Shown piece after piece: positions 3,128 through 18,455 of a stretch of DNA of 64,000 nt. The translations under genes and the position numbers were made by a program. The first letter of the stretch is position 1, and every line of letters begins with the position of its first letter. The DNA comes from Spirosoma sp. (GTDB lineage: Bacteria > Bacteroidota > Bacteroidia > Cytophagales > Spirosomataceae): assembly GCF_026391055.1 (NCBI RefSeq), contig NZ_JAPLET010000030.1, positions 434,001 through 498,000 on the forward strand. Direction: 5' to 3'. The notes under the pieces were generated by a model. The model made no database searches, had not been told where the DNA came from, and worked only from the letters and a program-made list of their open reading frames with translations.

Positions 3128-5257
3128 ATGAAAAAGTATCTGGTGACCCTAGTGCCCGTGCTGATGCTGAGTTTTCAGCCGGATTCGCCTTCAAATGGTG
3201 CCCCCAAAACACATGGGCAAACCATTTCTACAGGCGTTGTGAATGAAGATAAAAACGGGGGACCCGTTGAGGAACTGAAACCATCGATCTCGCAGGAGAA
3301 AGTGGAAACGCTGGTGGCGAAGCTCCTGACGACTTACCATTACCGCAAGGTAAAACTCAACGACTCCCTCTCATCGGTGGTCTGGGACAACTACCTGAAA
3401 GAGCTGGATGGCAACAAAACCTATTTCCTGGCGTCGGACGTAGCCTCTTTTGAGAAGTACCGTTATCAGATTGATGATGCCCTTATCAACGGTGACCTGA
3501 CGGCAGCTTATGATTTGTTCAACCTGTACCGGAAACGCTACCAGGAGCGCAGTGAGTTTGTTAAAGCGCAAATCAAAAAGCCGTTTACCTTTACCAGCGA
3601 CGAAAACTTCAACACCGATCGGGAGAAAATGCCCTGGCCCAAAACGGTGGAAGAGCAGAATGACCTGTGGACCAAAATCCTGAAAAATCAGGCGCTCGAA
3701 CTCAAGCTGGGTAATCGAAAAGACAGTGCTGTAGCCGCCCTGATGACCCAGCGGTACAACAACCTCGATAAAGCTATCAATCGGGTGAAAAGCGCGGATG
3801 TGTTCCAGATGTACATGAACTCATTTGCCGAAGCACTCGACCCGCACACCAACTACCTGTCGCCAAGCTCTGCCGATAAGTTCAATCAGGACATGAGCCA
3901 GTCACTGGAAGGTATCGGTGCAATCTTACGCGAAGATGGCGACTACATTCGTATCATGGACGTTCTGCCCGGTGGTCCGGCGTTCAAAAGCAAACTTATT
4001 AACAAGGACGATAAAATAGCTGGTGTTGCTCAGGGTGACAATGGCCCGATGGTCAACACCATGAACTGGCAAGTCGACGAAGTTGTGAAGCTCATCAAAG
4101 GCCCGAAAGGAACGATTGTTCGGTTACAGGTCATCTCGCCAAACTCGCTGGCGGGCGCTCCACCAAAGGAAATTCGACTGGTTCGGGAAAAAATAAAGCT
4201 GGAAGAACAACGCGCCAAGAAAGAAGTCATTGAAGTGACGGACAATGGCAAACCGTTCAAGATTGGCGTTATCAACATCCCCATATTCTACCGTGATTTT
4301 GAAGGGGCCCGCAAGCGCGAGGAAGGCTTTAGCAGCACGACGAGCGACGTAAAGAAATTTGTAGAAGAGCTGAAAGCCGAGAAAGTGGACGGTATCGTTA
4401 TTGACCTTCGCGACAATGGCGGTGGCTCATTAGTCGAATCCATTAACCTGACCGGCCTGTTTATTCCGAAAGGCCCCGTTGTACAGGTGCGCGAAGCAAC
4501 CGGCGAAACAGAAGTGTATACGGATCCCGATCCGTCCGTTACCTACGATGGCCCGATGGCCGTTCTGGTAAACCGTTTTAGTGCGTCGGCGTCAGAGATT
4601 TTCGCGGCTGCTATTCAGGATTACAAGCGGGGTATTATTGTGGGTGGACAAACCTATGGTAAAGGCACGGTACAAACGATGATCGACCTGAACCAATGGC
4701 TGCCTAAAGAGCCCGAAAAAGTTGGTCAGGTAAAAATGACTATCCAGAAGTTCTACCGCATTAATGGCAGCAGCACACAGCATAAAGGGGTAACACCCGA
4801 CGTTCAACTGCCTTCGGCTTTCTCGGCTGAAGAGTATGGCGAAAGTTCACAGCCAAGTGCCCTGCCCTGGGATCAAATCAACTCGACCCGATACGAGCAG
4901 TCGCGTGGTATTGACGACAAAATCCTGAGCCGCCTTCGTGACCGTTTTGATCAGCGCCTGAAGTCGGACCCTGAACTGAAGCAACTAGCCCAGGATCTGG
5001 CCGACTTCAAGAAAGCAAAAGAAAACACCGTTGTCTCGTTGCAGGAGGCCAAGCGCCGGAAAGAGCGGGATGAAGCAGAACGTAAGCGCACGGCTGCTAA
5101 TAAGGTATCGCAGATATCGGCTTCAGGAGATGAAGCTGAACCCGCGGCCACCGGGACGGCAGCAACTCCCAAGAAGAAAAAAGACCTGTATCTGAACGAA
5201 GCAGGTCTGGTATTGGCAGATTATATTATGGCCACCCATCTGGCCGTGAACAAATAA
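3128..5257 (+). CDS. prc: Tail-specific (carboxy-terminal processing) protease, family S41A
   Basis: This periplasmic serine protease degrades or trims proteins from their C-termini. The 709 residues hold a signal peptide, the N-terminal TSP domain (about 55-235), a PDZ domain (about 255-345), and the S41 core. The Ser/Lys dyad with supporting Asp is visible with the spacing of E. coli Prc: Ser487 in NRFSASASEIF, Asp498, and Lys512 in TYGKGTVQ. A charged Lys/Arg/Glu-rich C-terminal region (about 600-690) corresponds to the DUF3340-type tail. It is preceded by an exported FKBP chaperone and followed by a strong terminator. Confidence 0.95.
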   Translation: MKKYLVTLVPVLMLSFQPDSPSNGAPKTHGQTISTGVVNEDKNGGPVEELKPSISQEKVETLVAKLLTTYHYRKVKLNDSLSSVVWDNYLKELDGNKTYFLASDVASFEKYRYQIDDALINGDLTAAYDLFNLYRKRYQERSEFVKAQIKKPFTFTSDENFNTDREKMPWPKTVEEQNDLWTKILKNQALELKLGNRKDSAVAALMTQRYNNLDKAINRVKSADVFQMYMNSFAEALDPHTNYLSPSSADKFNQDMSQSLEGIGAILREDGDYIRIMDVLPGGPAFKSKLINKDDKIAGVAQGDNGPMVNTMNWQVDEVVKLIKGPKGTIVRLQVISPNSLAGAPPKEIRLVREKIKLEEQRAKKEVIEVTDNGKPFKIGVINIPIFYRDFEGARKREEGFSSTTSDVKKFVEELKAEKVDGIVIDLRDNGGGSLVESINLTGLFIPKGPVVQVREATGETEVYTDPDPSVTYDGPMAVLVNRFSASASEIFAAAIQDYKRGIIVGGQTYGKGTVQTMIDLNQWLPKEPEKVGQVKMTIQKFYRINGSSTQHKGVTPDVQLPSAFSAEEYGESSQPSALPWDQINSTRYEQSRGIDDKILSRLRDRFDQRLKSDPELKQLAQDLADFKKAKENTVVSLQEAKRRKERDEAERKRTAANKVSQISASGDEAEPAATGTAATPKKKKDLYLNEAGLVLADYIMATHLAVNK

Positions 5258-5285
5258 GCCTGAATTAATATCTGAATTGATAAGA

Positions 5286-5314
5286 AACGCGCAGCGAACC
5301 GTTGCGCGTTTTTT
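5286..5314 (+). terminator. Intrinsic terminator after prc
   Basis: An 8-bp stem AACGCGCA/TGCGCGTT (5286-5293 with 5303-5310) is followed directly by a run of Ts. Confidence 0.9.
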
Positions 5315-5347
5315 ATGTTTACCAATAAATGATTCGCAAATCACCGC

Positions 5348-5587
5348 ATGTGGTACTTTCTAATTAAGCAAAACACACTCGATCGGGTGCAGTATCAATC
5401 ACTGCAAAAGCGGGCTGCACTTACCGAAGTCGAGTTATTTAACGAACCCTACGAAAACTGGTACGTCTTTTCAATTGAGAAAGATGCCTATACCGCGTTT
5501 ATGGACCATCTGGACCGCGCCGGGATTGGTTACGACTTAGCTACTGAACGGCCAACGCGCGATGAAATACTGAATATCATGCGCTAA
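5348..5587 (+). CDS. Small hypothetical protein (79 aa)
   Basis: I do not recognise this protein. It has 79 residues, starts MWYFLIKQNTLDRVQYQSL, and has no signal peptide or membrane segment. Its mixed charged and aromatic composition and the lack of a competing frame suggest a real soluble protein. It starts 34 bases after the prc terminator and ends 3 bases before the convergent MATE gene, so its coding region fills the gap neatly. No operon partner and no motif point to a function. Confidence 0.6.
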   Translation: MWYFLIKQNTLDRVQYQSLQKRAALTEVELFNEPYENWYVFSIEKDAYTAFMDHLDRAGIGYDLATERPTRDEILNIMR

Positions 5588-5590
5588 CTA

Positions 5591-6991
5591 TCAGGCGATC
5601 GGCGTATCTGAAACAGTAGACCCAACAAACAGATCAACGCGTTTTACCCGTCGGAAAAAGCGCCAGGTAAGCAAAACAGCGACAATGGACAAACCCGCCA
5701 GTAACCCAATCCAAACCCCTACGGCATCCATACCCATCGGAAAAGCCAGGACGTAACTCAACGGCAGGGCAACCACCCAATAGGAAAACAGCGTAATCAG
5801 CGTAGGCACGTTCACATCCGACAGACCACGCAGCCCCCCAAGCGCCACCACCTGCACGCCATCGGAAAGCTGAAAGAACCCAGCCATAATTACCAGCGAA
5901 GCCGCAATGCTCATCACGGCCGGATTATCCCGAAGGTAGAGCGTTACGAGCCAATCGTTGGCAGTCAGGAACACGAGGGCTGTAACGCTCATGAAACTTA
6001 CCGACAATAGAAAAGCCGCCACCCCGGCTCGCCAGACCTCCTCCCGGCTTTTGCGCCCCACAGCCGCGCTGACACGAATCGCAGCCGCCGACGAAATGCC
6101 CGTTGCCATCATATACGTTACCGACGCCATATTGATGGCAATCTGGTGAGCAGCCAGTTGAGCTTCTCCCAGCCAGCCAACAATCACAACCGCCAGCGAA
6201 AAAGTAGCTACCTCAAAGAAAAATGTCAGTCCACCCGGAATACCCAGCCGCAGTATGATCCAGGCTTCTTCTTTTGACGGCAGTAACTTGAATTCCCGTT
6301 TCAGGTAAGCCCGAAAATGTGCCGTTCGGTAAATATAGAGTAGCATTGCCCCCGCCATAAACGTTCGCGACAGTAGCGTAGCCAACGCTGACCCCATCAG
6401 TCCCAGTGCCGGGAATGGGCCAGCACCCTTTATAAATATGTAGTTAAAAAGGGCATTTATCCCTAATGCCGACAAGGTTATGGCCATGGCTACCCGAGGA
6501 TAACGCAGGCCATCGCACAGTTGACGAGCCGCCACAAAAATCAATAGCGGTAAGAGCGAGGCACTTAAAATCAGCATAAAGTCGCGCGCCAGCCGGGTTA
6601 CTTCGGCCGTTTGTCCGAACAGACTAAAGTTAAAGGCTAACAGTACCGACAGACCGCCCAGCAAAATACTCAGTAGCCCGGCAACCCGTAACCCGGCCCG
6701 AAAAAGCCGATTTACCCCCGCCGGATCGCTCTGGTTGCTAGCTTTGGAGACCAGCGCGGCCACCACCGACATGCCCCCTACGCCAATGCTCGACATCAGG
6801 AAAGATAATGAATTGGCCAGACCGGCAGCACCTAACGGCACTGCTCCCAGCAATCGGCCTACGAACAGATTGTCTGTTACGCCCATCAAAACCACACCTA
6901 GCTGCGCAATAATGATTGGTATACTCAGGCGAAGGGTGTCGGCAAATTCGGCGCGGTAGGTACGCAACAGCGGACGTTGAGCAATAGGCAT
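5591..6991 (-). CDS. MATE family multidrug/sodium antiporter
   Basis: This inner-membrane exporter uses a Na+ or H+ gradient to expel cationic drugs or metabolites. At 466 residues it has the typical length, with about twelve hydrophobic segments. The N-terminal SIPIIIAQLGVVLMGVTDNLFVGRLLG is the classic first MatE repeat, and the second repeat begins near LGIPGGLTFFFEVATFSLAVV. The start at 6991 is supported by a -7 element at 7018-7025 upstream. It is monocistronic and divergent from the DUF4290 gene. The substrate cannot be read from sequence. Confidence 0.92.
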   Translation of the reverse strand: MPIAQRPLLRTYRAEFADTLRLSIPIIIAQLGVVLMGVTDNLFVGRLLGAVPLGAAGLANSLSFLMSSIGVGGMSVVAALVSKASNQSDPAGVNRLFRAGLRVAGLLSILLGGLSVLLAFNFSLFGQTAEVTRLARDFMLILSASLLPLLIFVAARQLCDGLRYPRVAMAITLSALGINALFNYIFIKGAGPFPALGLMGSALATLLSRTFMAGAMLLYIYRTAHFRAYLKREFKLLPSKEEAWIILRLGIPGGLTFFFEVATFSLAVVIVGWLGEAQLAAHQIAINMASVTYMMATGISSAAAIRVSAAVGRKSREEVWRAGVAAFLLSVSFMSVTALVFLTANDWLVTLYLRDNPAVMSIAASLVIMAGFFQLSDGVQVVALGGLRGLSDVNVPTLITLFSYWVVALPLSYVLAFPMGMDAVGVWIGLLAGLSIVAVLLTWRFFRRVKRVDLFVGSTVSDTPIA

Positions 6992-7017
6992 AGCGTATCG
7001 ACGGAGGGAACTAACGG

Positions 7018-7025
7018 CAAAGATA
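7018..7025 (-). promoter_or_regulatory. -7 promoter element of the MATE gene
   Basis: The minus strand reads TATCTTTG, an exact TAnnTTTG match, 26 bases upstream of the ATG at 6991. Confidence 0.6.
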
Positions 7026-7114
7026 GCACTTCCTTATTTTCCATACTTTGCTACCCTTACCCTTTTGCCCATGCTTCCCTACGCCATGCCCCGAGGCCCT
7101 ACGCTCATTACCCC

Positions 7115-7145
7115 TTGCCCCTTGGCCCATTCCTTCGTACTTTTG
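7115..7145 (+). promoter_or_regulatory. Promoter-like pair overlapping the 5' end of the DUF4290 frame
   Basis: A -33-type TTG (7115-7117) and a -7 element TACTTTTG (7138-7145) are separated by 20 bases, the spacing expected in Bacteroidota. If used, transcription would start near 7150, inside the longest open frame, so translation would have to begin downstream. Confidence 0.45.
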
Positions 7146-7982
7146 TTACTTTATCACCTATCGGGCAAGCCCTTGAAAGAATACGGCAGTAGTATCCAGA
7201 AGCTCGTTGACAACATGGTCAACATTGACGATCGCTCAACCCGAACTCGGTATGCACATATCCTGATTGAGTTGATGCGGCAAATCCATCCCAACATGAA
7301 GGATGGTCAGGACTACTACAATAAGTTGTGGGACGACCTGTACATCATGTCTAATTTTACGCTGGATGTGGATAGCCCCTACCCACCTCCATCGGAAGAA
7401 GCACTCGGTAAAAAGCCTCAGCGGGTTCCTTACAATACTCATAACCTGAAATTCAGACATTTTGGCCGGAATGTCGATTTACTGATCGCTAAAGCAGTTG
7501 CTCTGGAAGAACCCGAAGAACGGCGGGCTTTTGTTTCATACCTGGCGCGTTTGATGCGAACCTTCTATCAGGCATGGAATAAAGAATCTGTTGAAGATGA
7601 GACAATTTATCAAAGCCTGATTGAACTCTCGAACGGTAAACTGCACGACGACATTAAGCTCATCCGGGAGCAGGGGCTTGTTGAATCGACCCCCCGCGAA
7701 CGTACCGGCGACCAGCCGCAGCGCATCGGGAATGGTGGCGGTAACAACTTCCGCAACGACCGTAACAATAGTTCTCAGGGACGGCCAAACAACCGAAACG
7801 ACCGGAACGGCAACAATGAGAACGGGCAAAACCCGCGTAATGTCAATAACCGAAACCGGAACGATAATCCGCAGGGTCGGCCAAATAACCGAAACGACCG
7901 CGATGGCGGACAAAACCCACGGAACTTCGGCAGCCGTAATCGTAACGACCAAAACAGAAACAACGACCGTCGCAGACGGTAA
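7143..7982 (+). CDS. DUF4290 domain protein with Arg/Asn-rich tail
   Basis: The N-terminal about 180 residues match the Bacteroidota family DUF4290, of unknown function: YHLSGKPLKEYG, then IHPNMKDGQDYYNKLWDDL and NFTLDVDSPYP. It lies just upstream of murA, a position I recall for this family. The start is uncertain. An ATG at 7065 adds 26 residues of low-complexity C-rich origin. The TTG at 7143 fits the family N-terminus. A TTG at 7173 or the ATG at 7215 would be needed if the promoter-like pair at 7115-7145 is used. The last about 85 residues are almost pure Arg, Asn, Asp and Gly with repeated units such as QGRPNNRNDR, suggesting a disordered, possibly RNA-binding tail. Confidence 0.85.
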   Translation: MLLYHLSGKPLKEYGSSIQKLVDNMVNIDDRSTRTRYAHILIELMRQIHPNMKDGQDYYNKLWDDLYIMSNFTLDVDSPYPPPSEEALGKKPQRVPYNTHNLKFRHFGRNVDLLIAKAVALEEPEERRAFVSYLARLMRTFYQAWNKESVEDETIYQSLIELSNGKLHDDIKLIREQGLVESTPRERTGDQPQRIGNGGGNNFRNDRNNSSQGRPNNRNDRNGNNENGQNPRNVNNRNRNDNPQGRPNNRNDRDGGQNPRNFGSRNRNDQNRNNDRRRR

Positions 7983-8093
7983 ATTTCAGTTATAAAAGAT
8001 AACGGGTTCAGGGCGACTTTTGACTGTTTCTTTATTCACATCTGTTCCGCTAACTCGTTCATCATTTATAATTCATCATTCATCATTCCCTAA

Positions 8094-9401
8094 ATGGCAT
8101 CCTTTCAAATCACAGGCGGACGTAAACTAAAAGGCGAACTAAATCCGCAGGGCGCAAAAAACGAAGCTCTACAAATTCTTTGCGCCGTATTGCTGACTAA
8201 AGAACCCATTACGATTCACAACATTCCCGGTATTCGGGATGTGAATCAACTCATCGACCTACTGGGCGATCTGGGCGTATGGGTGACGAAGATTGGCGAA
8301 AGTTCGTACCGGTTTCAGGCCAGCGATGTTAATCTCGACTACCTCGAAACAGACACCTATAAGCGTAAAGCAGCCGCCTTACGAGGGTCGGTCATGTTGC
8401 TGGGTCCTATGCTGGCCCGGTTTAAAAAAGGACGTATTCCCCGGCCCGGTGGCGACAAAATCGGCCGTCGCCGGTTGGATACCCACTTCTTGGGGTTCGA
8501 AAAGCTCGGTGCTCAGTTTAACTACGATGCCAACGATGGCGGCTACTACCAAGTAGATGCCAGCAACCTACGCGGTACTTATATGCTGCTAGACGAGGCT
8601 TCTGTAACCGGTACGGCCAATGTGTTAATGGCCGCTGTTATGGCCGAGGGCACAACGCAGATTTATAATGCAGCTTGTGAGCCTTACCTACAGCAGCTGA
8701 GCAAAATGCTCAACTCTATGGGCGCCAAAATTACAGGCGTTGGCTCTAACCTGCTCACCATTGAGGGTGTATCGGAGCTACATGGAACAGAGCACACCAT
8801 GCTGCCCGACATGATCGAGATTGGCTCGTTTATCGGGCTGGCCGCCATGACACAGTCTGAAATAACGATTAAAAACTGCCAGATTCCGGAATTAGGAATT
8901 ATTCCCGATCAGTTCAGGCGGTTAGGTATCCAAATGGAATTTCGGGGAGACGATATTTTCATTCCGGCTCAGGAGCGCTATCAGATTGAAAGCTTTCTGG
9001 ATGGGGGCATGATGACTGTTTCAGATTCTCCCTGGCCTGGCTTCACCCCCGATCTGCTGAGCATTGTTCTCGTCACCGCCGTACAGGCGCAAGGAACCCT
9101 GCTGATTCACCAGAAAATGTTCGAAAGTCGGCTGTTCTTTGTGGATAAGCTCATCGACATGGGTGCCCAGATTATCCTGTGCGACCCACACCGCGCTACG
9201 GTTGTTGGTCTGAACCGCCAGATTCCGCTGAAAGGCATCCGCATGTCATCGCCGGATATCCGGGCGGGAGTTGCCTTACTGATTGCGGCCATGTCGGCAC
9301 AGGGTACTAGCATAATTGATAACATTGAGCAGATCGACCGGGGGTATCAGAACATCGACACCCGGCTAAATGCCATTGGTGCCGAGATCATCAGGTTGTA
9401 A
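8094..9401 (+). CDS. murA: UDP-N-acetylglucosamine 1-carboxyvinyltransferase with Asp at the active-site Cys position
   Basis: This enzyme transfers enolpyruvate from PEP to UDP-GlcNAc, the first committed step of peptidoglycan synthesis in the cytoplasm. The 435-residue length and the two-domain repeat fit MurA. Lys22-Asn23 of the KNE motif is present. The active-site loop reads PRPGGDKIGRRR, so residue 121 is Asp where E. coli MurA has Cys115. Known Cys-to-Asp MurA enzymes stay active but cannot be alkylated by fosfomycin, so intrinsic fosfomycin resistance is expected. It follows the DUF4290 gene by 110 bases and ends in a strong terminator. Confidence 0.97.
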   Translation: MASFQITGGRKLKGELNPQGAKNEALQILCAVLLTKEPITIHNIPGIRDVNQLIDLLGDLGVWVTKIGESSYRFQASDVNLDYLETDTYKRKAAALRGSVMLLGPMLARFKKGRIPRPGGDKIGRRRLDTHFLGFEKLGAQFNYDANDGGYYQVDASNLRGTYMLLDEASVTGTANVLMAAVMAEGTTQIYNAACEPYLQQLSKMLNSMGAKITGVGSNLLTIEGVSELHGTEHTMLPDMIEIGSFIGLAAMTQSEITIKNCQIPELGIIPDQFRRLGIQMEFRGDDIFIPAQERYQIESFLDGGMMTVSDSPWPGFTPDLLSIVLVTAVQAQGTLLIHQKMFESRLFFVDKLIDMGAQIILCDPHRATVVGLNRQIPLKGIRMSSPDIRAGVALLIAAMSAQGTSIIDNIEQIDRGYQNIDTRLNAIGAEIIRL

Positions 9402-9420
9402 CCAATTATTCGATATTTTT

Positions 9421-9455
9421 AAGCCCGGTCTGCAAGATGCAGACCGGGCTTTTTC
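9421..9455 (+). terminator. Intrinsic terminator after murA
   Basis: A perfect 14-bp stem (9421-9434 with 9438-9451), a 3-base loop and a T-run. Confidence 0.95.
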
Positions 9456-9548
9456 GTTTTGTGTACACGTACCCTTAAACCTTACCCTCACTTTTTTGTC
9501 TTTAGCATAGATTAGGATTAGTTTAACAGCAAAAAATAAGTACATCTA

Positions 9549-10205
9549 ATGAAAACGTTCCAATCCAACCCTGCCGTTTGGGCACTGGCGGCCCTTCTGT
9601 CCGGTAGTTCGCTGGTAGCCTGCGCCCAGGCCACAACGGGTGGCGCAACAGCCAGTGCTTCAACAGCAAGCGACCCGGCCAAAACAATGCTGCTGCAACC
9701 GCTTCAGCAGATGGTTACAAAAATGAAAAAGCTACAGGCAACCGGCGACCCTGACTTCGACTATGCTTTTCAGGCTAAAGTCCATGCACAGGGAGCGCAG
9801 GATTTGCTAAAACAGGAAATCCAGAACGGGAAAGATTCATCTCTGAAACAAATGGCCCAGACATTGCTGACAGCCAGTGAAACCGAGTTATCGCAGCTGA
9901 CCAGCACCCTGACCAGCCTTAAGCCAACCCGGCCAAATCAGGCATATACACAACAGCAAGGCCGAAATGTTGAAGCAATGAGCCTGAAGTTACAGCAAAC
10001 GGGAGCCAGCGATAAGTTGACCAGTAATCTGGATAATAACTTCTCGACGCTTCTGATCGACCAGCGCCAGGATGCCATCGACTTGGCTAAAACTTACCTG
10101 CAATACGGTAAAAACAGCACACTCAAGGCCTACGCTCAGCAGTTGATCGATAAATCGACGCAACAGATGCAGCAAATGAAAACGATGGTGACCACACCTA
10201 AATAA
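9549..10205 (+). CDS. Lipoprotein with two degenerate DUF305-like helical repeats
   Basis: The signal peptide ends in a lipobox (LVAC, Cys25), so the protein is probably a membrane-anchored lipoprotein. Two helical segments resemble the ferritin-like DUF305 fold: DPDFDYAFQAKVHAQGAQDL and, later, NNFSTLLIDQRQDAIDLAKTYLQYGK with the typical LKAYAQQLIDKS continuation. DUF305 proteins normally carry HH pairs in these helices. Here only one His remains in the first repeat (VHAQGA) and none in the second (DQRQDA), so metal binding is probably lost. The 218-residue length fits a two-repeat member. It precedes the rhodopsin gene on the same strand but has a separate promoter region. Confidence 0.75.
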   Translation: MKTFQSNPAVWALAALLSGSSLVACAQATTGGATASASTASDPAKTMLLQPLQQMVTKMKKLQATGDPDFDYAFQAKVHAQGAQDLLKQEIQNGKDSSLKQMAQTLLTASETELSQLTSTLTSLKPTRPNQAYTQQQGRNVEAMSLKLQQTGASDKLTSNLDNNFSTLLIDQRQDAIDLAKTYLQYGKNSTLKAYAQQLIDKSTQQMQQMKTMVTTPK

Positions 10206-10213
10206 AGCCAATC

Positions 10214-10245
10214 GTTGCACCATGAATGTACTAACGTTAGTTTTG
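10214..10245 (+). promoter_or_regulatory. Predicted rhodopsin promoter
   Basis: A -33-type TTG at 10215-10217 and a -7 element TAGTTTTG at 10238-10245 are separated by 20 bases. The -7 element straddles the end of the left arm and the loop of the inverted repeat at 10220-10272. Predicted initiation near 10250 gives a very short leader. Confidence 0.6.
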
Positions 10246-10272
10246 ACGCTACTAACGTTAGTACATTCATGG
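10220..10272. promoter_or_regulatory. Perfect 21-bp inverted repeat covering the rhodopsin promoter and start codon
   Basis: Arms 10220-10240 and 10252-10272 are exact reverse complements with an 11-base loop. Each arm contains the palindrome CTAACGTTAG. The left arm fills most of the spacer between the -33 and -7 elements. The right arm covers the predicted transcription start and includes the ATG at 10269. It could be an operator pair, or an mRNA hairpin that hides the start codon if transcription begins upstream. Confidence 0.85.
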
Positions 10273-11075
10273 AAATAGCCGATTCGTTTGTTCCAACGGC
10301 AGGTGTCGTTGGCATTCTCCCATTAGTCACTTACTTCTTTTTAGTAGTAGCTACCTATACTTTTGTGGGTACATTCATTGCCGCTCTAGCTGTGCGGCCG
10401 GCCATGCCCGCCCAACACGATCAGTCCTTACCACTCATTTTAACGGCCGTTACTACGGCTATTGCGGGCTTCTCCTACTACCAGATTCAGGGGTATTACC
10501 ACGACATGCTGGCCGAACTGGTAACAGTTACTGATCCCGAAAACCGGCAGGTACTCATTCGCGAATCGTACAATGCCATCGGTCAGTACCGCTTTATGGA
10601 TTGGGCCGTAACGATTCCCCTGCTGCTTATTCAGGCGCTTACAATACAAAATACGAATTCGGGCCGGAGTACCCGAACACTCGTTACGCTAGTGACAGCC
10701 GGTCTTTTTACGATTCTGACCGGCTACATAGGTCATCAACAACTCGCCTTCGACAACGAGATTATGGTCGGCCCCAAATTAATCTGGGGAGCTATTTCTA
10801 TGCTTGGCTATGCCTTCATTGGGCGAATACTACTCGGAATTTGGAGACAATCAGCCGATCAGGTTCAACCCGACGAACGACGAATTTCTAAACTGGTGGC
10901 AACTTCTGTAGCAGCTTTTGCCGTTGCCTACCCTATCGGCTACGTTCTCTCGCTTACCGCTATTGACTTCAACTTAATTCACATTCTATATACAACCACT
11001 GATTTGATCAGTAAAGTCGGCTTGGGGCTGGCCGCGTATTTTACCCTCACCAAAACCATTCAGAGTAAAACTTAA
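10269..11075 (+). CDS. Microbial (type I) rhodopsin, light-driven pump or sensor
   Basis: A seven-helix retinal protein of 268 residues. Helix C reads QYRFMDWAVTIPLLLIQ: Arg108, Asp111, Thr115 and Gln122 occupy the bacteriorhodopsin R82, D85, T89 and D96 positions. Helix G reads YTTTDLISKVGLGL, with Asp245 and the retinal Schiff-base Lys249. The D-T-Q set differs from the usual proton pumps (DTD, DTE), Na+ pumps (NDQ) and Cl- pumps (NTQ). A proton acceptor is present but the carboxylate donor is replaced by Gln. Helix E has WGAIS, where related xanthorhodopsin-type proteins carry a Gly beside a carotenoid antenna. No retinal-forming dioxygenase gene is nearby. The start is the ATG at 10269; an open TTG extension to 10215 would run through the inverted repeat. 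Confidence 0.95.
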   Translation: MEIADSFVPTAGVVGILPLVTYFFLVVATYTFVGTFIAALAVRPAMPAQHDQSLPLILTAVTTAIAGFSYYQIQGYYHDMLAELVTVTDPENRQVLIRESYNAIGQYRFMDWAVTIPLLLIQALTIQNTNSGRSTRTLVTLVTAGLFTILTGYIGHQQLAFDNEIMVGPKLIWGAISMLGYAFIGRILLGIWRQSADQVQPDERRISKLVATSVAAFAVAYPIGYVLSLTAIDFNLIHILYTTTDLISKVGLGLAAYFTLTKTIQSKT

Positions 11076-11085
11076 AGGGAACTCT

Positions 11086-11985
11086 ATGCGACTTATTTAC
11101 GGCTTAATTTGCTTGTTTATTCTTTCGCTGGCCTCATTGGCAAAGGGGCAAAATGGCATCGTTGTTTTTCAATCTGATTTTGGATTGAAAGATGGAGCCG
11201 TATCAGCAATGAAAGGCGTGGCACTGGGGGTATCATCAACCCTTAAGCTGGAAGACCTAACCCACGAAATTCCGGCGTACAACATCTGGGAAGCGGCCTA
11301 TCGTCTACACCAAACCGTCCCCTACTACCCCAAAGGCACCGTTTTCGTATCCGTTTGCGACCCTGGTGTGGGTACAGAACGGCGATCGGTAGTAATGCTC
11401 ACTAAATCGGGGCACTACATTGTTACACCCGATAACGGCACGCTCACCCTGCTGGCCGAACACATTGGCATTGCCGAAATCCGGCAGATCGACGAAGCGA
11501 TCAACCGATTGAAGAACTCCGGGGCCTCTTACACCTTTCATGGCCGCGATGTATATGCGTATACGGCAGCCCGGTTGGCAGCAAAGGTTATCACGTTTCA
11601 ACAGGTAGGCTCGAAATTGCCTAATCAGGTTGTAAAGCTGGCCTATCAGAAGGTGACTTATAAAGAGGGTATTGTGCAGGGAAATATTCCGGTGCTCGAC
11701 GTTCAGTATGGCAACGTCTGGAGCAATATTCCCCGCGCCCTGATCAACCAGCTAAGCGTAAGACCCGGCGAATCGGTGCGGGTACAGATCTTCCATGGCG
11801 AAACGAGCCTGTACGATAAAACCGTTCGGATGGTAAATACTTTTGGTGAAGCTCCTGTTGGCGACGATGTAGCTTATATAAACAGCCTGCTCAACTTCTC
11901 CATCGCCATCAATCAGGGCAATTTTTCGGAGAAGTACAAAGTGTTCAGTGGCCCGGACTGGAGAATTGTGGTTAGTGGTAACTAG
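11086..11985 (+). CDS. Exported SAM hydroxide adenosyltransferase (DUF62 family)
   Basis: DUF62 enzymes hydrolyse S-adenosylmethionine to adenosine and methionine and are related to fluorinase and chlorinase. The family motifs are visible: VVFQSDFGLKDGAVSAMKG near the N-terminus, VSVCDPGVGTERR, VTPDNGTLTLL and FHGRDVYAYTAARLA. An N-terminal signal peptide (MRLIYGLICLFILSLASLAKGQ) predicts export, which is odd because SAM is cytoplasmic. The start lies 10 bases after the rhodopsin stop, so the two are very probably co-transcribed. The halogenase-specific insertion cannot be judged by eye, so hydrolase is the default call. Confidence 0.88.
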   Translation: MRLIYGLICLFILSLASLAKGQNGIVVFQSDFGLKDGAVSAMKGVALGVSSTLKLEDLTHEIPAYNIWEAAYRLHQTVPYYPKGTVFVSVCDPGVGTERRSVVMLTKSGHYIVTPDNGTLTLLAEHIGIAEIRQIDEAINRLKNSGASYTFHGRDVYAYTAARLAAKVITFQQVGSKLPNQVVKLAYQKVTYKEGIVQGNIPVLDVQYGNVWSNIPRALINQLSVRPGESVRVQIFHGETSLYDKTVRMVNTFGEAPVGDDVAYINSLLNFSIAINQGNFSEKYKVFSGPDWRIVVSGN

Positions 11986-12119: not shown

Positions 12120-13961
12120 TTACACACTCTGCATCGTGCTTAACTTTCGGTAAAATCCTTCATCTAGTGTGAGGAGTTCATCGTGCCGTCCGCGCTCTAC
12201 GATGCGTCCCTGATTGACCACCAGAATCTCGTCGGCGTGTTGAATGGTACTGAGCCGGTGGGCAATCACGAGCGTTGTGCGGTTAGCCATCAGGCGCGTC
12301 AGGGCTTCCTGCACCAGTTTTTCGGATTCCGTATCTAGAGCGGAGGTAGCTTCGTCCAGAATTAGAATTGGCGGGTTTTTCAGGATGGCGCGGGCAATAC
12401 TGATGCGCTGTCGTTGCCCACCGGATAGTTTGCCGCCCCGATCACCAATGATAGTCTGGTACCCATCGGACTGGGCCATGATAAAGTCGTGTGCATTGGC
12501 AATCCGGGCCGCTTCCATAATCTGGGCCTCGGTGGCAGCACTGCCAAAGGCGATGTTGTTGAAGATCGTGTCGTTGAACAGAATACTCTCCTGCGTCACG
12601 ATACCCATTTGCGCTCGCAGTGAGGCCATGCTGCAATCGCGCATGTCGACGCCATCAATCAGGATTTGCCCGGCCGTAGGATCATAAAAACGCGGAATCA
12701 GATCGGCAATGGTAGACTTTCCTCCGCCCGATGAACCCACCAGCGCAATGGTTTTGCCTTTTTGAAGATCGAACGTAATATCCCGCAACACGGGGGTATC
12801 TACGTTATAGGCAAACGATACATGCTGCACCGAAATCTTATCGCGGAAACCAGTCAGCGTCACCGCATCGGGTTTATCCTGCACCGTGGGTACCGTGTCG
12901 ATCAGTTCGAGCACCCGCTCGCCCGAAGCCAGCCCCCGCTGCGACCCGCTGAAGGCGTTGGAGATATCTTTGGCCGGACGTGTCACCTGCGAGAAAATGG
13001 CGATGTAGGCGATGAATTCCGACGCCGTCAAGTCCGACTGTCCATTCAGGATCAGCAATCCACCGTAGTACAGAATACTGGCTACGGCGGCCACACCAAC
13101 CACTTCCGAGAAGGGTGACGCCAGTTCGCGCCGGTTGGCCAGCGAGCGGATGGCGTCACGATAGCCTTCGTTTTCACGCCGGAACTTGTCCAGAATAAAG
13201 CCTTCAGCCACGAACCCTTTCACCACGCGCATACCGCCAAAGGTCTCGTCGAGCAGGCTCACCAGACCGCTCAATCGTTGCTGGCCTTCCTGCGCGTCGC
13301 GCTTCATCCGGCGAACCAGCGTGGCAATAAAAATCCCAGAAATGGGAATAACGACGATGGCAAAAAGCGTCAGTTTGATCGAAATACTGAGTAGCGCAAC
13401 GACGTAACCAATCAGCAGAAACACCTCTTTGGAAGCTGCTGACAGGGTGTTGGCAATTGAGTTTTCTACTTCCTGTACGTCGGTGGTAGTCCGGGAAATG
13501 AGATTGCCTTTGCGCTCATTCGAGAAAAAACCAAGGTGAAGTTGCAGCGTTTTGGCAAAAACAGCCTCGCGCAGCCTGGCCACCATTCTGGCCTTGAACG
13601 ACTCCAATTGCCTAACTGACAAGTATTTAAAAACATTGTTAAGCAGTACGGATAGGATAATAACGACACAAACGAACTTAAGTGTCCCAACTTTTCCATA
13701 TTCCTGAAAGGCCTGAGCAAAGTAATAATTAAAGACTTTGGTTGGCGACGTAAAGAAGGATACAAATGAAGGGGAAGGCTGGCTTAAAAGCTTCTTTACC
13801 TGCCCGGTATCAACCTGATTAAATAGCGTACTGAGCAGCGGGATGAGCAGTGCAAAATTCAACACGCCAAAAACACTGGACAACAGCGACGTAAACACGA
13901 ACGGTGTCAGGAAACGCCCGAGTGGTTTGGCAAAAGAAAGTAATCGAAGGTATGTTTTCAT
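12120..13961 (-). CDS. ABC exporter of the MsbA type (fused permease-ATPase)
   Basis: At 613 residues this is a half-size ABC exporter with an N-terminal six-helix domain (about 1-330) and a C-terminal ATPase. Walker A is GSSGGGKST, the signature LSGGQRQRIS, and Walker B ILILDEATSALD. Such proteins flip lipid A-core or other hydrophobic substrates across the inner membrane; MsbA is the best guess in a lipid A-producing organism, but other substrates are possible. The gene is divergent from the padR operon. Its -7 element (13970-13977) and a 25-bp inverted repeat lie just upstream. Confidence 0.9.
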   Translation of the reverse strand: MKTYLRLLSFAKPLGRFLTPFVFTSLLSSVFGVLNFALLIPLLSTLFNQVDTGQVKKLLSQPSPSFVSFFTSPTKVFNYYFAQAFQEYGKVGTLKFVCVVIILSVLLNNVFKYLSVRQLESFKARMVARLREAVFAKTLQLHLGFFSNERKGNLISRTTTDVQEVENSIANTLSAASKEVFLLIGYVVALLSISIKLTLFAIVVIPISGIFIATLVRRMKRDAQEGQQRLSGLVSLLDETFGGMRVVKGFVAEGFILDKFRRENEGYRDAIRSLANRRELASPFSEVVGVAAVASILYYGGLLILNGQSDLTASEFIAYIAIFSQVTRPAKDISNAFSGSQRGLASGERVLELIDTVPTVQDKPDAVTLTGFRDKISVQHVSFAYNVDTPVLRDITFDLQKGKTIALVGSSGGGKSTIADLIPRFYDPTAGQILIDGVDMRDCSMASLRAQMGIVTQESILFNDTIFNNIAFGSAATEAQIMEAARIANAHDFIMAQSDGYQTIIGDRGGKLSGGQRQRISIARAILKNPPILILDEATSALDTESEKLVQEALTRLMANRTTLVIAHRLSTIQHADEILVVNQGRIVERGRHDELLTLDEGFYRKLSTMQSV

Positions 13962-13983: not shown

Positions 13984-14080
13984 ACCTGGATTTATGTGAT
14001 TTTTTTGACAGACCATGATTTTAAAAGGTTGCCTTCCCTGAAAAAATCAGAGTAATCAAAAAAATCACATAAATCCAGGT
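13984..14080. repeat. Perfect 25-bp inverted repeat between divergent promoters
   Basis: Arms 13984-14008 and 14056-14080 are exact reverse complements with a 47-base loop. The arms contain AAATCACATAAATCCAGGT plus a run of seven A or T. The element separates the exporter promoter from the padR promoter. The phrase resembles the unpaired stretch near 18530-18560 upstream of hemE (AATCACACGAATCA). Confidence 0.85.
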
Positions 14081-14088
14081 CAAAAAAG

Positions 14089-14132
14089 TATACCTAAGAT
14101 TTGGAGGTATATAAAACTCTTTTGTACGTTTG
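14089..14132 (+). promoter_or_regulatory. padR promoter with PadR-type operator
   Basis: The inverted repeat TATACCT-(9)-AGGTATA lies at 14089-14111. A -33 TTTG (14100-14103) sits in its loop. The -7 element TACGTTTG (14125-14132) follows 21 bases after it and ends 4 bases before the ATG at 14137. An operator over the -33 element upstream of a PadR gene fits autorepression. The mRNA is predicted to be leaderless. Confidence 0.7.
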
Positions 14133-14136
14133 GGTC

Positions 14137-14481
14137 ATGAATACGTCCTCAAATTCCTCTTTACTAAAAGGTAGCCTGTCGGTTATGATTTTGCGGTTGC
14201 TGGAAGACCGCGAGAAGATGTACGGCTACGAGATTACGCAAAAGGTGAAAGACCTGACGGCGGGCGAAATGACCATTACCGAAGGTGCCCTCTACCCCGC
14301 TCTGCACAAACTCGAAGCTGATGGGCTGCTTACCACCGAAACCCAGATTGTCGACGGACGCACCCGTAAATACTACTCGCTCACTAAAACCGGCCATACC
14401 GAAGCCGCCGGGCGCATCGCCGAGTTAGCCGCCTTTCTGGAAAACCTGAATCTGGTTCTGAAACTTAAACCATCCATGTAA
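14137..14481 (+). CDS. PadR family transcriptional regulator
   Basis: A 114-residue winged-helix repressor: LLKGSLSVMILRLLEDREKMYGYEI starts the HTH and ITEGALYPALHKLEADGLL is the recognition helix and wing. A short C-terminal helix serves dimerisation. The ATG at 14137 is chosen over one at 14101 because the promoter lies between them and homologues begin near this point. It is the first gene of a five-gene operon, with the next gene starting 2 bases after its stop. PadR genes often sit with membrane proteins carrying HAAS/permease-prefix domains that they regulate, which fits the neighbours here. Confidence 0.93.
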   Translation: MNTSSNSSLLKGSLSVMILRLLEDREKMYGYEITQKVKDLTAGEMTITEGALYPALHKLEADGLLTTETQIVDGRTRKYYSLTKTGHTEAAGRIAELAAFLENLNLVLKLKPSM

Positions 14482-14483
14482 TC

Positions 14484-15155
14484 ATGGCTCTGACACCTTT
14501 TCAACTGAAATACCTGCGCTTCGATTTGATTGGCCTTGGCGACATCAAATACGATGATGTCATTGATGAATTGCTCGACCATTACGCCAGCCTGACCGAA
14601 CAGAAAATGACGATTGGTATGGCCTTTGAGGAAGCCAGCAAACAGGCCTGGGCTGAGCTGGGGGCCGAAAAAGGCGTTCAGAAAATTCAGGCGTCGTTTG
14701 TTAAGGCCATTGAGCAGCAGATCAAAATGCAGCATATTACCATTTTAAAGAGTTATTTCCGCTGGCCCACGCTGGTCACTACCATACTTGTTGGATTGCT
14801 AGTGTACATGGTAGTTCCGCTGATACCGGTAAAACGGTTAATAGTGTGCACATTGCTTATTGGTGTAATACCGTTTCTATTCATCCTTCGAGGGTATTAT
14901 TATGGATTTCATCAGCAAACTGATACGGGCAAACTAATCTGGGAATATCTGTTAAATAAATGCGGATTAGCCGTTTGTCTTTTCCACCTAAGCCTAAACC
15001 TACCCAATCACTTTTTAGAAAACGCTCCTGAGTCAACAAGAACGTTTTTGCAGACATACCCCACTATTTCGGTTCTTATTTGCCTGCTCCTGTTACTTTA
15101 CACCGCGAGTTTCATCCAACTATTCCAGCATCAGTATAAACACAAATTCGTTTAA
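14484..15155 (+). CDS. PadR-linked membrane protein, type A copy 1
   Basis: The function is unknown. The N-terminal about 85 residues are soluble and helical with IDELLDHYASLTE, GMAFEEASKQAW and a terminal LG, resembling the HAAS/permease-prefix domain of proteins encoded next to PadR regulators. A FRWPT turn follows, then about four membrane helices (roughly residues 95-115, 118-138, 157-175 and 190-212). It shares IDELLDHYASLTE, the QHxxIxxxYFRWPT turn and the overall length (223 aa) with the gene at 15871, and is more distant from the genes at 15162 and 16593. It starts 2 bases after padR, so translational coupling is likely. Confidence 0.85.
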   Translation: MALTPFQLKYLRFDLIGLGDIKYDDVIDELLDHYASLTEQKMTIGMAFEEASKQAWAELGAEKGVQKIQASFVKAIEQQIKMQHITILKSYFRWPTLVTTILVGLLVYMVVPLIPVKRLIVCTLLIGVIPFLFILRGYYYGFHQQTDTGKLIWEYLLNKCGLAVCLFHLSLNLPNHFLENAPESTRTFLQTYPTISVLICLLLLLYTASFIQLFQHQYKHKFV

Positions 15156-15161
15156 GCCGCT

Positions 15162-15860
15162 ATGCTCACGCCCGCCCAACTCACCGCCATCGACCAGCAT
15201 CTGCGCAAGGAAAACTGGTTGCTCAACGAAGACCTAATTACCGAACTCACCGATCATTACATCAATGGCATCACTGACCGACTGGCGCAGGGGATGGCTT
15301 TTGATCTGGCCCTGCGGGAAATACATACCGGCTTTGGCGGGCGCAAAGGCTTGCTTAAAATGGAAGAGGACTATCAGGTGCAGCGTTACCGAAAACTCGG
15401 ACAGCTGGAATGGCAGGTGATTCGTTCCTTTATGAATGGATCAAGACGGCCGATTACCACCAGCCTATTCATTGGGTTGTATATAATCAATACATATTTT
15501 GGTGCGGAGGATATGGTAAAAACAGGGTTGGCTGTTGGCTTTCTATTTGTTACGTTTTCTGTTCTTATTAGTATTGCCAAGGGTATTTTCGTTCTTTATC
15601 AGAATCGGAATGAGGTTAGTCAGGCCGTTGGGCAACCGAGTTCGCCGGTTTTTATTACGGCCTATCTGCTTAGTATGTCCCTGTTACTTCTCAATAAATA
15701 CGGCCTGCCAAAGTACGATTTAAGCCTCCCGGCGTCGGTACTCCTATCGCTGCAAACCTTGCTGGAGACGCTGTGCCTTGTTTATTACGCGGCCATTGTG
15801 CTGGCTATGAGACACATTTTATTGAAAGAACGTAACCAACGTCTCCCTAAGTCCGCTTAA
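15162..15860 (+). CDS. PadR-linked membrane protein, type B copy 1
   Basis: The function is unknown; 232 residues. The N-terminal soluble domain has ITELTDHYINGITDRLAQGMAFDLAL, then GFGGRKGLLKMEEDY, and about four hydrophobic segments after residue 100. It pairs with the gene at 16593 (both begin MLTPAQ and carry ELTDHY, AQGM and FGGRxGLxKME). Compared with type A it replaces ELLDHYASLTE by ELTDHY and has no FRWPT turn. It starts 6 bases after the type A gene. The tail is basic (RHILLKERNQRLPKSA), which suggests a cytoplasmic C-terminus. Confidence 0.83.
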   Translation: MLTPAQLTAIDQHLRKENWLLNEDLITELTDHYINGITDRLAQGMAFDLALREIHTGFGGRKGLLKMEEDYQVQRYRKLGQLEWQVIRSFMNGSRRPITTSLFIGLYIINTYFGAEDMVKTGLAVGFLFVTFSVLISIAKGIFVLYQNRNEVSQAVGQPSSPVFITAYLLSMSLLLLNKYGLPKYDLSLPASVLLSLQTLLETLCLVYYAAIVLAMRHILLKERNQRLPKSA

Positions 15861-15870
15861 CTAACCGAAC

Positions 15871-16566
15871 ATGCTCACATCCGACCAACTCGCTGTTCTC
15901 CGTCAGGACCTGCTTGAGGAAGCGAACATTTCTTACAAAGAGGTGCTGGACGAACTACTGGACCATTACGCCAGCCTGACCGAGCGTGGGATAGACGAAG
16001 GTTACTCGTTTGACGAGGCCAGCCGAAAAGCGTGGATCAGCTTGGGAAGCGGACAGGGCATTTCTCACATTCAGGAGCGGTATAAGAAACTATTGTTGAA
16101 GCAAATGCAGGTGCAGCACTGGGCCATTGTGCGCCGTTATTTTCGCTGGCCTACAATCATTACAACCCTGCTGGCTGGTGTATTGGCGTACTTAGCGGCC
16201 GGCAAAGTATCACCGTTTGTTTTGCCAGTCGCTTTTATGGCGTTATCATTCTTCCCCTATTTGCTGTTCCTTCCGGGTGAAGTACGGCTTTTCTGGCAAC
16301 AACGGGTTCGAAGACACCAAACGCTCCATTCGCTTCGGCGGGAGGTTGTATACCGGCAGGCCCGCTATGGCAATTATCTGTGTCTGGCTGTCATTCAAGT
16401 CCCTGCTTTGGCAGGTATATTCTTCCTGAATGATCCAAAACGCCTTTACTTGTTCGAGTGGCACACCGGTTTATCCGCTGCCTTAACATTCGTAGCCATG
16501 CTGTACACGCTTAGTTATGTCGAGCTTTATAAACAGCAATCTACGAAAGGCTTTACCCCCGTCTGA
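15871..16566 (+). CDS. PadR-linked membrane protein, type A copy 2
   Basis: The function is unknown; 231 residues. It has LDELLDHYASLTERGIDEGYSFDEA, the IQERYKKLL helix and QHWAIVRRYFRWPTIITTLLAG, closely matching the type A gene at 14484 through the soluble domain and first membrane helix. The later helices diverge. It is separated from the previous gene by 10 bases. This is the third of four tandem membrane genes, consistent with duplication of an A-B unit. Confidence 0.83.
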   Translation: MLTSDQLAVLRQDLLEEANISYKEVLDELLDHYASLTERGIDEGYSFDEASRKAWISLGSGQGISHIQERYKKLLLKQMQVQHWAIVRRYFRWPTIITTLLAGVLAYLAAGKVSPFVLPVAFMALSFFPYLLFLPGEVRLFWQQRVRRHQTLHSLRREVVYRQARYGNYLCLAVIQVPALAGIFFLNDPKRLYLFEWHTGLSAALTFVAMLYTLSYVELYKQQSTKGFTPV

Positions 16567-16592
16567 CTCACCTTTTTCGACTACATCATCCC

Positions 16593-17297
16593 ATGCTCAC
16601 GCCCGCCCAGCAATCCACCCTCGGTTATCACCTTCGCGAGACGAACCTGCTCACAAACGAGGAATTAATTCTCGAATTGACTGACCATTACACCACGGCT
16701 CTGCTCGACCGTATGGCGCAGGGCATGACCTTCGAAACCGCCCTGACGGATACCCAACAGGCGTTTGGGGGTCGTAACGGGTTGCAGAAAATGGAGCGTC
16801 AGTACAACCGGGTCACCTTCCGGCAGTACGATGAGCGTTGGCGTCAGGCATTAGTTATGCAATTTCAGAAACCGTTGTTATGGCGGCAAACGCTGCCCAT
16901 CTACGCGGTTATACTTCTCCTATCTTTTGTTATTTACTCACCTAATCCAGCGAATGGATTGGAGTTGGATGACGACTTCTATTATGGCTTTGCAAGTGGA
17001 ACGCTTCTGGGGTTTATTATCTTGCTAATGAGCTTAATGTGGCCTTACCTAAAAACTGTGTTCAGGCATGGATTTTACAACGTCCCTACCGAAGCACTGT
17101 ATTTGGTCACACGCCATTCCGTACTACTTCTCATCATGTATGGAGCAGGAGGAATGGGGTTTCTAGGAATTTTCCCCTTCCTGCCTTATCCTGTTCAGCC
17201 TATGCTCATTTCGCTTTACCTGGGATTCGTTGGCCTGTACACGCGAACCGGCAATATTATGTATGAATCGCTGTATGACGTTTATCCAAATCGATAA
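16593..17297 (+). CDS. PadR-linked membrane protein, type B copy 2
   Basis: The function is unknown; 234 residues. It starts MLTPAQQSTLGYHLRETNLL and carries LELTDHYTTALLDRMAQGMTF and AFGGRNGLQKMERQY, matching the type B gene at 15162. About four hydrophobic segments follow from residue 105. It is the last gene of the padR operon and ends 40 bases before the convergent glycosyltransferase, with a weak hairpin (AACCA..CG / CG..TGGTT) between them. Confidence 0.83.
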   Translation: MLTPAQQSTLGYHLRETNLLTNEELILELTDHYTTALLDRMAQGMTFETALTDTQQAFGGRNGLQKMERQYNRVTFRQYDERWRQALVMQFQKPLLWRQTLPIYAVILLLSFVIYSPNPANGLELDDDFYYGFASGTLLGFIILLMSLMWPYLKTVFRHGFYNVPTEALYLVTRHSVLLLIMYGAGGMGFLGIFPFLPYPVQPMLISLYLGFVGLYTRTGNIMYESLYDVYPNR

Positions 17298-17336: not shown

Positions 17337-18407
17337 TTAGGGATTCACCAGCCCCTCATATAACTGCCAATATTCTGTCGCCACCTTTGGCCAGCTAAAT
17401 CCGGCCGCCCGTCTGCGGAGACGCTCCTCGCGCAGGGAATTCTGGCCGAAATCGTGGAGCCCATCGTGCAGTACTTTGGCCATATTCTCCGGCTCGAAAT
17501 CTTCGAAGTAATACGCTTCTTTGCCACCTACTTCGGGTAAGCTCGTGAGGTTGGAAATGAACACCGGCTTGCCAAATGTCATGGCTTCGGCAACGGGCAA
17601 ACCGAACCCTTCTGCCAAGGAGGGGAACAAAAATGCTTCACAATGAGCGTAAAGCCACGACTTAGTCGCTTCATCGACCGGGCCAGGCATTAGCAACCGG
17701 TCAGCGACGCCCAGTTTTTGTGCCTGCTCGCGGATGTGCTGCGCATAGGGGTGTCCATCCGGACCCGCTAGGATCAGCCGGTAGTCGGGGAAAGCTTCGA
17801 GCAGCGGCAAGAGGGTGTGTATGTTTTTCTTGGGATGCAAAACGCCGACAAACAGAAAAAACGGGTGATCGTTGCCCTCCAGAAAAGCCGGTCGCGGGCC
17901 ATCGGCCCGAAGATCGTGTTCGCTAATCGCTACACCGTTCGTGATCACCCGAACCGGCTTTGTATCGGGCACACGAAGCTGCTGCTTTACCACCGAGGCC
18001 GTGTAGACCGAAATAGCCGTCAGCGCATCCGCCCGGTCCACTTTTCGCTGTAGCGTTACCAGCTTACGGGCTTTCTTGGCCTCAGAATAATCGACGCGTT
18101 CCAGAAAATTCAGGTCATGAATCGTCAGAATCATCTTCGCCTTGTCGTGCGGCAGGTAGGCCGACTCCTGATGCAGGCAGTGCCATACCTCATAAGTACC
18201 GGGTGTCCAAAATTTTCGTAGCCACGACGCTTCTATGTACGACACCGTATCGCCGAATACACCGGTTTCTCCTTTCGGAACAAGAAACGTCAATTTCCAC
18301 CCGTCGTGACGCTGACGAACCAGTTCGTGGCCGAGGTGTAAACAAACCTGGCCCAGACCACTGTTGAGGTCGCGCAGGCGTTCGGCGTCGATAAAGAGAG
18401 AAGGCAT
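17337..18407 (-). CDS. Glycosyltransferase family 4 (GT-B fold)
   Basis: A cytoplasmic retaining sugar transferase of 356 residues. The C-terminal Rossmann half carries FFLFVGVLHPKKNIHTLL and the GT4 E-x7-E signature EAFLFPSLAEGFGLPVAEAM; the N-terminal half has GLGQVCLHLGHEL. The acceptor is unknown; cell-surface polysaccharide or glycolipid synthesis is likely. The ATG at 18407 (MPSLFIDAERL) is preferred over a TTG at 18428, because a -7-like CAATTTTG overlaps the TTG. It stands alone, convergent with the padR operon and back to back with hemE. Confidence 0.9.
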   Translation of the reverse strand: MPSLFIDAERLRDLNSGLGQVCLHLGHELVRQRHDGWKLTFLVPKGETGVFGDTVSYIEASWLRKFWTPGTYEVWHCLHQESAYLPHDKAKMILTIHDLNFLERVDYSEAKKARKLVTLQRKVDRADALTAISVYTASVVKQQLRVPDTKPVRVITNGVAISEHDLRADGPRPAFLEGNDHPFFLFVGVLHPKKNIHTLLPLLEAFPDYRLILAGPDGHPYAQHIREQAQKLGVADRLLMPGPVDEATKSWLYAHCEAFLFPSLAEGFGLPVAEAMTFGKPVFISNLTSLPEVGGKEAYYFEDFEPENMAKVLHDGLHDFGQNSLREERLRRRAAGFSWPKVATEYWQLYEGLVNP

Positions 18408-18455
18408 ACCAGTTGAAGATTTCGACAAAATTGGGAAATTTTAAGAGTACTTCGT

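Follow-up and report, generated by a model that had tools for sequence, protein, structure and literature searches.

A PadR repressor gene and a variable array of membrane-protein genes occupy a single chromosomal slot in Spirosoma

Why would a bacterium place four related membrane-protein genes behind a single PadR-family repressor, and what might such an arrangement do? The question is raised by a locus of Spirosoma sp. (assembly GCF_026391055.1, 8.0 Mb in 31 contigs), found within a 64,000-nucleotide stretch of contig NZ_JAPLET010000030.1, hereafter the window. On its forward strand, a gene for a PadR-family repressor of 114 amino acids (nt 14137–14481) is followed by four co-directional genes, here termed A1 (nt 14484–15155, 223 aa), B1 (nt 15162–15860, 232 aa), A2 (nt 15871–16566, 231 aa) and C (nt 16593–17297, 234 aa), with successive gaps of 2, 6, 10 and 26 bases. 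This layout had been proposed in a first-pass annotation, in which C figured as a second B-type gene (B2), and was confirmed by the coordinates of the open reading frames and by a winged-helix match of the PadR protein well above the Pfam cut-off (PF03551, 82.2 bits versus 27; E 2.6e-23). The reading that we favour, with a probability of about 0.42, is that the locus is a self-contained, autoregulated and diversifying array for membrane sensing or protection. It starts from what could be computed, namely the gene order, a conserved operator-like site and its single occurrence, the homology of an N-terminal adaptor domain, the presence or absence of the locus as a unit, and modular replacement in some of the genes; the function itself is proposed from these.

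All four window proteins have an N-terminal helical domain of ~80–90 residues followed by approximately four membrane helices, and carry the ELLDHY or ELTDHY motif together with the F and G positions that had been pointed out previously. An AlphaFold model of A1 (mean predicted local distance difference test score, pLDDT, 85) agreed with the expected soluble domain and membrane helices, with a confident N-terminal helical domain at residues 5–90 (predicted helices 5–19, 24–43, 48–58 and 61–90) and then helices compatible with four membrane spans; the B1 model (mean pLDDT 66) was poor past the N-domain. The even number of spans, together with positive charge in both the C-terminus and the loop that follows helix 2, suggests that both termini of A1 would be cytoplasmic. 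The N-domain is encoded at nt ~14484–14753 in A1 and ~15162–15425 in B1, and the membrane part at nt ~14769–15152 in A1 and ~16126–16563 in A2. N-terminal identity reaches 47% between A1 and A2 and 46% between B1 and C, versus 26–29% across types. The C-terminal halves share 21–29% identity in all six window pairs, with a shuffle score that is clear for A1–A2 alone (z 9.8, the next being A1–B1 with 3.8).

The N-termini had been expected to be related to PadR-associated prefix domains. A profile of the HAAS domain (PF22564) matched nothing in the own genome at E 0.001 and none of the four window proteins at E up to 10, nor was this family among the matches listed (25 of 40 families) for 24 relatives; when five HAAS domains were used as target, a set limited to these five members, the hhalign probability was 0.7. 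Permease prefix domain 1 (NCBIfam NF038403) matched 14 of 24 diverse members at E ≤ 1 (best 1.8e-5), with window scores below its 30-bit cut-off (15.0 bits for A1, 17.7 for A2, 11.8 for C; B1 unmatched). Profile-profile comparison of 91 N-domains with 20 permease-prefix domains by hhalign gave a probability of 96.1 (E 2.8e-9, 71 columns). Since 100 column-shuffled controls stayed at or below 3.85, and a PadR control at 0.1, the array N-domain is judged from these profiles to be distantly homologous to permease prefix domain 1, in line with the expected relationship; kinship to PF22564 itself is unproven. No Pfam match to an ABC permease (MacB/FtsX) was obtained behind the N-domain in the four window proteins. 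At the GxP kink site of helix 3, located by eye, these read GAE, GGR, GSG and GGR, none of which is GxP, and GGP is found at that site in two relatives (L038, nt 11237–11929, and L048; here and below, L labels denote loci or regions and G labels the genomes compared).

The N-domain and the membrane part of the array proteins have not evolved alike: in 185 of 189 orthologue pairs, drawn from 44 of the 52 array rows, the N-domain is the better conserved of the two. Exchange of membrane parts was assessed by comparing fourfold-degenerate sites of the N-domain and of the membrane part in 14 array-gene comparisons, the pairs having been picked after the first profiles; in four of them the membrane part was more diverged (p < 0.01). 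For A2, the window gene differs from that of G041 at 2/28 fourfold sites in the N-domain and 34/49 in the membrane part (p 6e-8), and from that of G043, whose flanking genes are closer than those of G041 to the window genome, at 5/27 and 33/51 (p 1.2e-4). G043 and G041 show no such contrast between themselves (6/25 and 23/65, p 0.33), which points to the window A2 membrane part as the replaced one; this part looks replaced by recombination. A similar contrast was seen between the third gene of G004 and the second of G046, with 5/27 differences in the first 66 codons and 17/19 from codon 72 onwards (p 2.5e-6; 28% protein identity), and with DNA identity falling from 88–98% to ~50% after ~200 bases, in two genomes sharing PadR and first array genes that are 97% identical in DNA. 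For C, the window and G043 differ at 10/33 and 21/28 sites (p 8e-4). Because the contrast is lacking between G043 and G041 (16/29 and 20/29, p 0.42), the case for exchange in C relies mainly on the protein identity of the membrane part, 41% between G043 and G041 and 70% between the window and G041. The comparison of A1 between the window and G043 gave p 0.011; B1 showed no contrast, with G043–G041 leaning the opposite way (p 0.054). Entire modules can differ as well: the first protein of G016 shares 85% identity with window B1 over the N-domain but 24% over the membrane part, and this membrane part is 48% identical to that of the second protein of G004. In these comparisons no half of PadR or of a flanking gene exceeds 0.48, versus 0.65–0.89 for the four replaced parts. 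The difference between N-domain and membrane part is, in part, greater than fast protein change would produce.

A palindrome noted earlier ahead of the PadR gene proved to be real. This putative PadR operator, TATACCT-N9-AGGTATA (nt 14089–14111), has a core, ATACCTAAGAYTTNNAGGTAT, that is conserved in 21/21 loci of the genus, and is followed on the forward strand by TACGTTTG (nt 14125–14132), a probable -7 promoter box, with the start codon beginning 5 bases further on. A TAnnTTT(G/A) box precedes PadR in all 21 loci; TAnnTTTG is what we take to be the Bacteroidota -7 promoter element. Because operator and box directly precede the ATG at nt 14137 in every locus, this codon, and not the TTG at nt 14101, is read as the PadR start. 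When 36 genomes of the genus were searched with up to two mismatches, the operator motif occurred once in each of the 21 genomes with an array, ~25–26 bases upstream of PadR, and at no place in the 15 array-less genomes, while a reversed control pattern gave two matches in total. As the search pattern was derived from the 21 sites themselves, the informative result is the absence of further sites. A looser search for symmetric arms in the own genome found 20 places, the own site included, versus 15 for the control. With a single operator per genome, PadR would control solely its own operon, as far as this motif goes. In other genera, 19 PadR genes were inspected by eye, and most of them have a similar motif ahead of them.

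The intergenic region holds a further element, lying outside the operator: a perfect 25-bp inverted repeat around a 47-nt spacer (nt 13984–14080), between PadR and a divergent ABC-transporter gene. The same spacer has the opposite orientation in G041 (L082, nt 11258–11368), where 40/47 bases match when inverted and direct alignment scores below 0, and repeat and spacer may form an invertible element. Inverted repeats also occur upstream of PadR in L084, L088, L044 and L041, four of seven further loci checked.

Across the genus, an orthologous PadR (≥85% identity) was found in 21 of 36 genomes, the 20 other orthologues being 85–98% identical to the window PadR and the next best PadR 61%, and array genes stand behind it in 21/21. 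The array usually lies between an MsbA-like ABC-transporter gene (nt 12120–13961, reverse strand) and a glycosyltransferase-like gene (nt 17337–18428, reverse strand), which are conserved neighbours, the exception being L045 of G002; both gene names are presumptive. The ABC gene was found in 14 of the 15 genomes lacking the orthologous PadR (no match in G012, 80% complete). In 13 of these 14 the glycosyltransferase sequence starts 30–198 bases away from the beginning of the ABC gene, and the 1.5 kb flanks gave no match to PadR or to any array gene; G013, which belongs to these 13, has an additional partial glycosyltransferase piece, and the flank in G005 shows no glycosyltransferase. PadR and membrane genes are therefore present or absent as one unit in one slot, gained or lost together.

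Array size varies from seven genes in G041 and six in G024 to four in the window and in G043, three in G004 and G014, and one in G002, G019, G048 and G007; the remaining eleven have two. Two of the 53 array genes in total are interrupted, the one in G007 and the first one in G014. With C as query, relatives were found in 14 of 39 genomes, own included, all within the same genus, whereas a 34-row profile matched in 34 of the 36 genomes of the genus. Across the family, with an E threshold of 1e-8 and no more than 13 candidates scored in any genome, this profile matched in at least 82 of 222 genomes and at least 19 of 36 genera. Among 20 regions from other genera, 19 show PadR and then one to six such genes, one (L116, on a short contig) has two such genes and no PadR, and in five the same ABC transporter is adjacent. 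One of these regions, L110 (nt 6683–11132; genus of G231), holds PadR and six tandem genes, five of which scored as relatives, apparently a separate expansion.

The first-pass annotation had seen in the window an alternating A-B-A-B order produced by tandem duplication of a two-gene unit encoding a heteromeric complex. The tree upheld that a single PadR serves distinct kinds of protein: the A-type proteins group together (19 rows, support 100/99), and this group is joined by a D type (97/96). The two presumed B proteins fell into two families, a well-supported C (12 rows, 97/90) and a weaker B (84/73). Approximately unbiased (AU) tests rejected sisterhood of the window A1 and A2 (p 2e-5) and of B1 and C (p 1.7e-66), so that a recent tandem duplication is not supported. 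A joint B+C group is absent from the best tree and is not rejected (AU p 0.12); B and C may thus go back to one ancient ancestor. Since A1, A2, B1 and C each have their own orthologues in other species and are not sisters within the window, the types would predate these species, and on the tree A, B and C are old lineages that come and go independently. Given the order A1-A3-B'-D-B1-A2-C in G041, the window order looks like part of a longer array. Five of the 21 arrays have no A or D type (G016, G023, G042, G002, G048) and two have no B or C type (G019, G007), the types being assigned from the tree and less sure on the long branches of the second genes of G039 and G010 and of the gene of G002. 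With seven of 21 arrays lacking one side, and four of 21 having one gene (one of them broken), an obligate A/B pair is contradicted.

We propose that PadR would repress a single promoter ahead of its own operon, and that the cytoplasmic N-terminal adaptor of each membrane protein, a permease-prefix or HAAS-like domain, most likely touches PadR. The four-helix membrane part would recognise or counter an agent within the membrane, its engagement would lift repression, and more array proteins would be produced. The membrane proteins would themselves be the output, perhaps a protective one, because PadR has no other recognisable site, unless it uses others. The adaptor would stay fairly constant, while loss, gain and recombination would vary the membrane part, as would fit an agent that itself varies. 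A bolder version is an inducible membrane-immunity or multi-receptor island, in which a fixed chassis of PadR, operator and adaptor would carry tandem four-helix modules swapped by recombination, as a lineage-specific repertoire directed at membrane-active antagonists that change over time (bacteriocins, antibiotics, phage proteins), with its own genes alone being regulated; we consider it speculative and rather unlikely.

Several points weigh against the self-contained array. The cited literature, available in excerpt, holds no experiment showing a prefix or HAAS domain binding PadR, and in Listeria LftR represses LieA with or without its HAAS-superfamily partner LftS (PMC4517056, in excerpt). 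PadR may also recognise sites that differ from the operator. As for an agent, PADLOC gives a single hint, a weak partial match of A1 to the candidate family PDC-M48A (E 0.0008). The contrast is missing at p < 0.01 in ten of the 14 array comparisons, and halves of the MsbA-like, glycosyltransferase and hemE genes also differ between the window and G043 (p 0.0004–0.0016), so that recombination is general, and patchy, in this region. The next account after the favoured one, doubtful yet a real possibility, is direct sensing of a small molecule by PadR itself, with the membrane proteins acting purely as effectors (in resistance, immunity or membrane remodelling) and the N-domain serving another purpose such as oligomerisation. 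It gains from the single operator site, which makes the membrane proteins the output, from the LftS-independent repression just cited, and from the Listeria DUF1700 membrane protein Lmo0600, which causes a cold phenotype once its PadR, LltR, is lost (PMC6624303, in excerpt). It sits less well with the N-domain being the constrained half and a relative of a known prefix domain, since retention of this domain beside a changing membrane half would be hard to explain without a constant partner such as PadR.

The remaining alternatives are improbable to differing degrees. Were the array a pure set of sensors, many receptors would signal to one PadR, the true targets of which would be found elsewhere, behind divergent operators; the several membrane proteins per regulator, and the proposal of HAAS-PadR as an alternative to two-component systems (PMC11237479, in excerpt), fit this idea, but the operator motif occurs nowhere else in the 21 array genomes and the looser search in the own genome exceeded its control by little (20 versus 15), and we find it improbable. 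Slightly more so is a cluster of drifting paralogues, with fast-evolving membrane parts and neutral expansion and shrinkage without selected diversity. The range of one to seven genes, the two interrupted ones, the general tolerance of membrane segments to change and the ten comparisons without contrast are what such drift would give; in four of the 14 comparisons, however, fourfold divergence is raised to one side of a domain border, which fast protein change alone does not bring about, nor would drift explain that PadR and operator are held constant. The duplicated two-gene unit with an A/B heteromeric complex retains very little probability. The A types do group together, B+C as one group is not rejected, and 14 of 17 multi-gene arrays hold an A or D type along with a B or C type, which leaves room for optional heteromers; the obligate pair is largely refuted by the AU tests, the one-sided arrays and the G041 order.

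How much of this is known? The pairing of PadR with a membrane protein bearing a prefix or HAAS domain is, and its signalling has been published as a proposal, in which HAAS transmits a membrane signal and PadR responds; uncharacterised fusions of a HAAS-type domain with four transmembrane helices are mentioned in the same source (PMC11237479, 2024, in excerpt). Like the dyad of HAAS and a PadR-like winged helix-turn-helix protein, the array places PadR beside an N-terminal helical domain joined to transmembrane helices, in this order in 21/21 loci; unlike it, the window proteins have neither a PF22564 match nor GxP, and one PadR serves up to seven paralogues with membrane parts exchanged in some genes. 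Proteins with permease prefix domain 1 share the homologous N-domain, whereas those of the array have no ABC permease domain and score under the 30-bit cut-off. In Listeria, LltR-Lmo0600-Lmo0601 and LftRS likewise combine PadR and a membrane or DUF1048 partner in one operon (PMC6624303, PMC4517056), and LltR regulates mainly its own operon (PMC6624303); they differ in having one HAAS-type partner per regulator, no array being described in the excerpts of these sources, and LftR in repressing a separate operon, lieAB (PMC4517056). A multi-member array, a one-operator regulon and membrane-module exchange were not found in searches covering open-access literature.

Simpler relatives exist in the same genus. 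In L051 and L091–L096, an adjacent PadR (46–52% identical to that of the window) accompanies a related N-domain in a single, shorter protein of 165–181 aa of DHL/DHI type, and no ATACCTAAGA-type operator was seen among the listed upstream stretches of these loci. In two of them (L091, nt 6830–7354; L096, nt 6641–7177), the N-domain of the short partner is followed by FRNKxYGAYxxR and hydrophobic stretches; this motif resembles the beginning of TonB energy transducers of Bacteroidota, which suggests that a prefix domain has been joined to a TonB-like anchor. In L092 (nt 3657–7016) and L093 (nt 6300–9646), PadR and a short DHI-type partner are followed by a co-directional gene for 800 aa, possibly a separate output gene. 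A second, single-copy locus of PadR and a DHF-type gene, used as outgroup, occurs in the own genome (L036, contig C7, nt 6840–7906) and in L048, L089 and L090; its PadR is 59–61% identical to that of the window, and L036 has a variant upstream site, ATACCTAAGATCTAGTAGTAT.

The locus offers a natural domain-swap series, with similar adaptors, unrelated membrane modules, one regulator and one operator per genome, so that it becomes directly testable which of the two, adaptor or membrane part, controls PadR. Should the membrane parts follow an antagonist, the array would be a bacterial example of repertoire-based recognition built on a one-component repressor. The array hints at an adaptable system by which these bacteria may sense or resist something that acts on the cell membrane.

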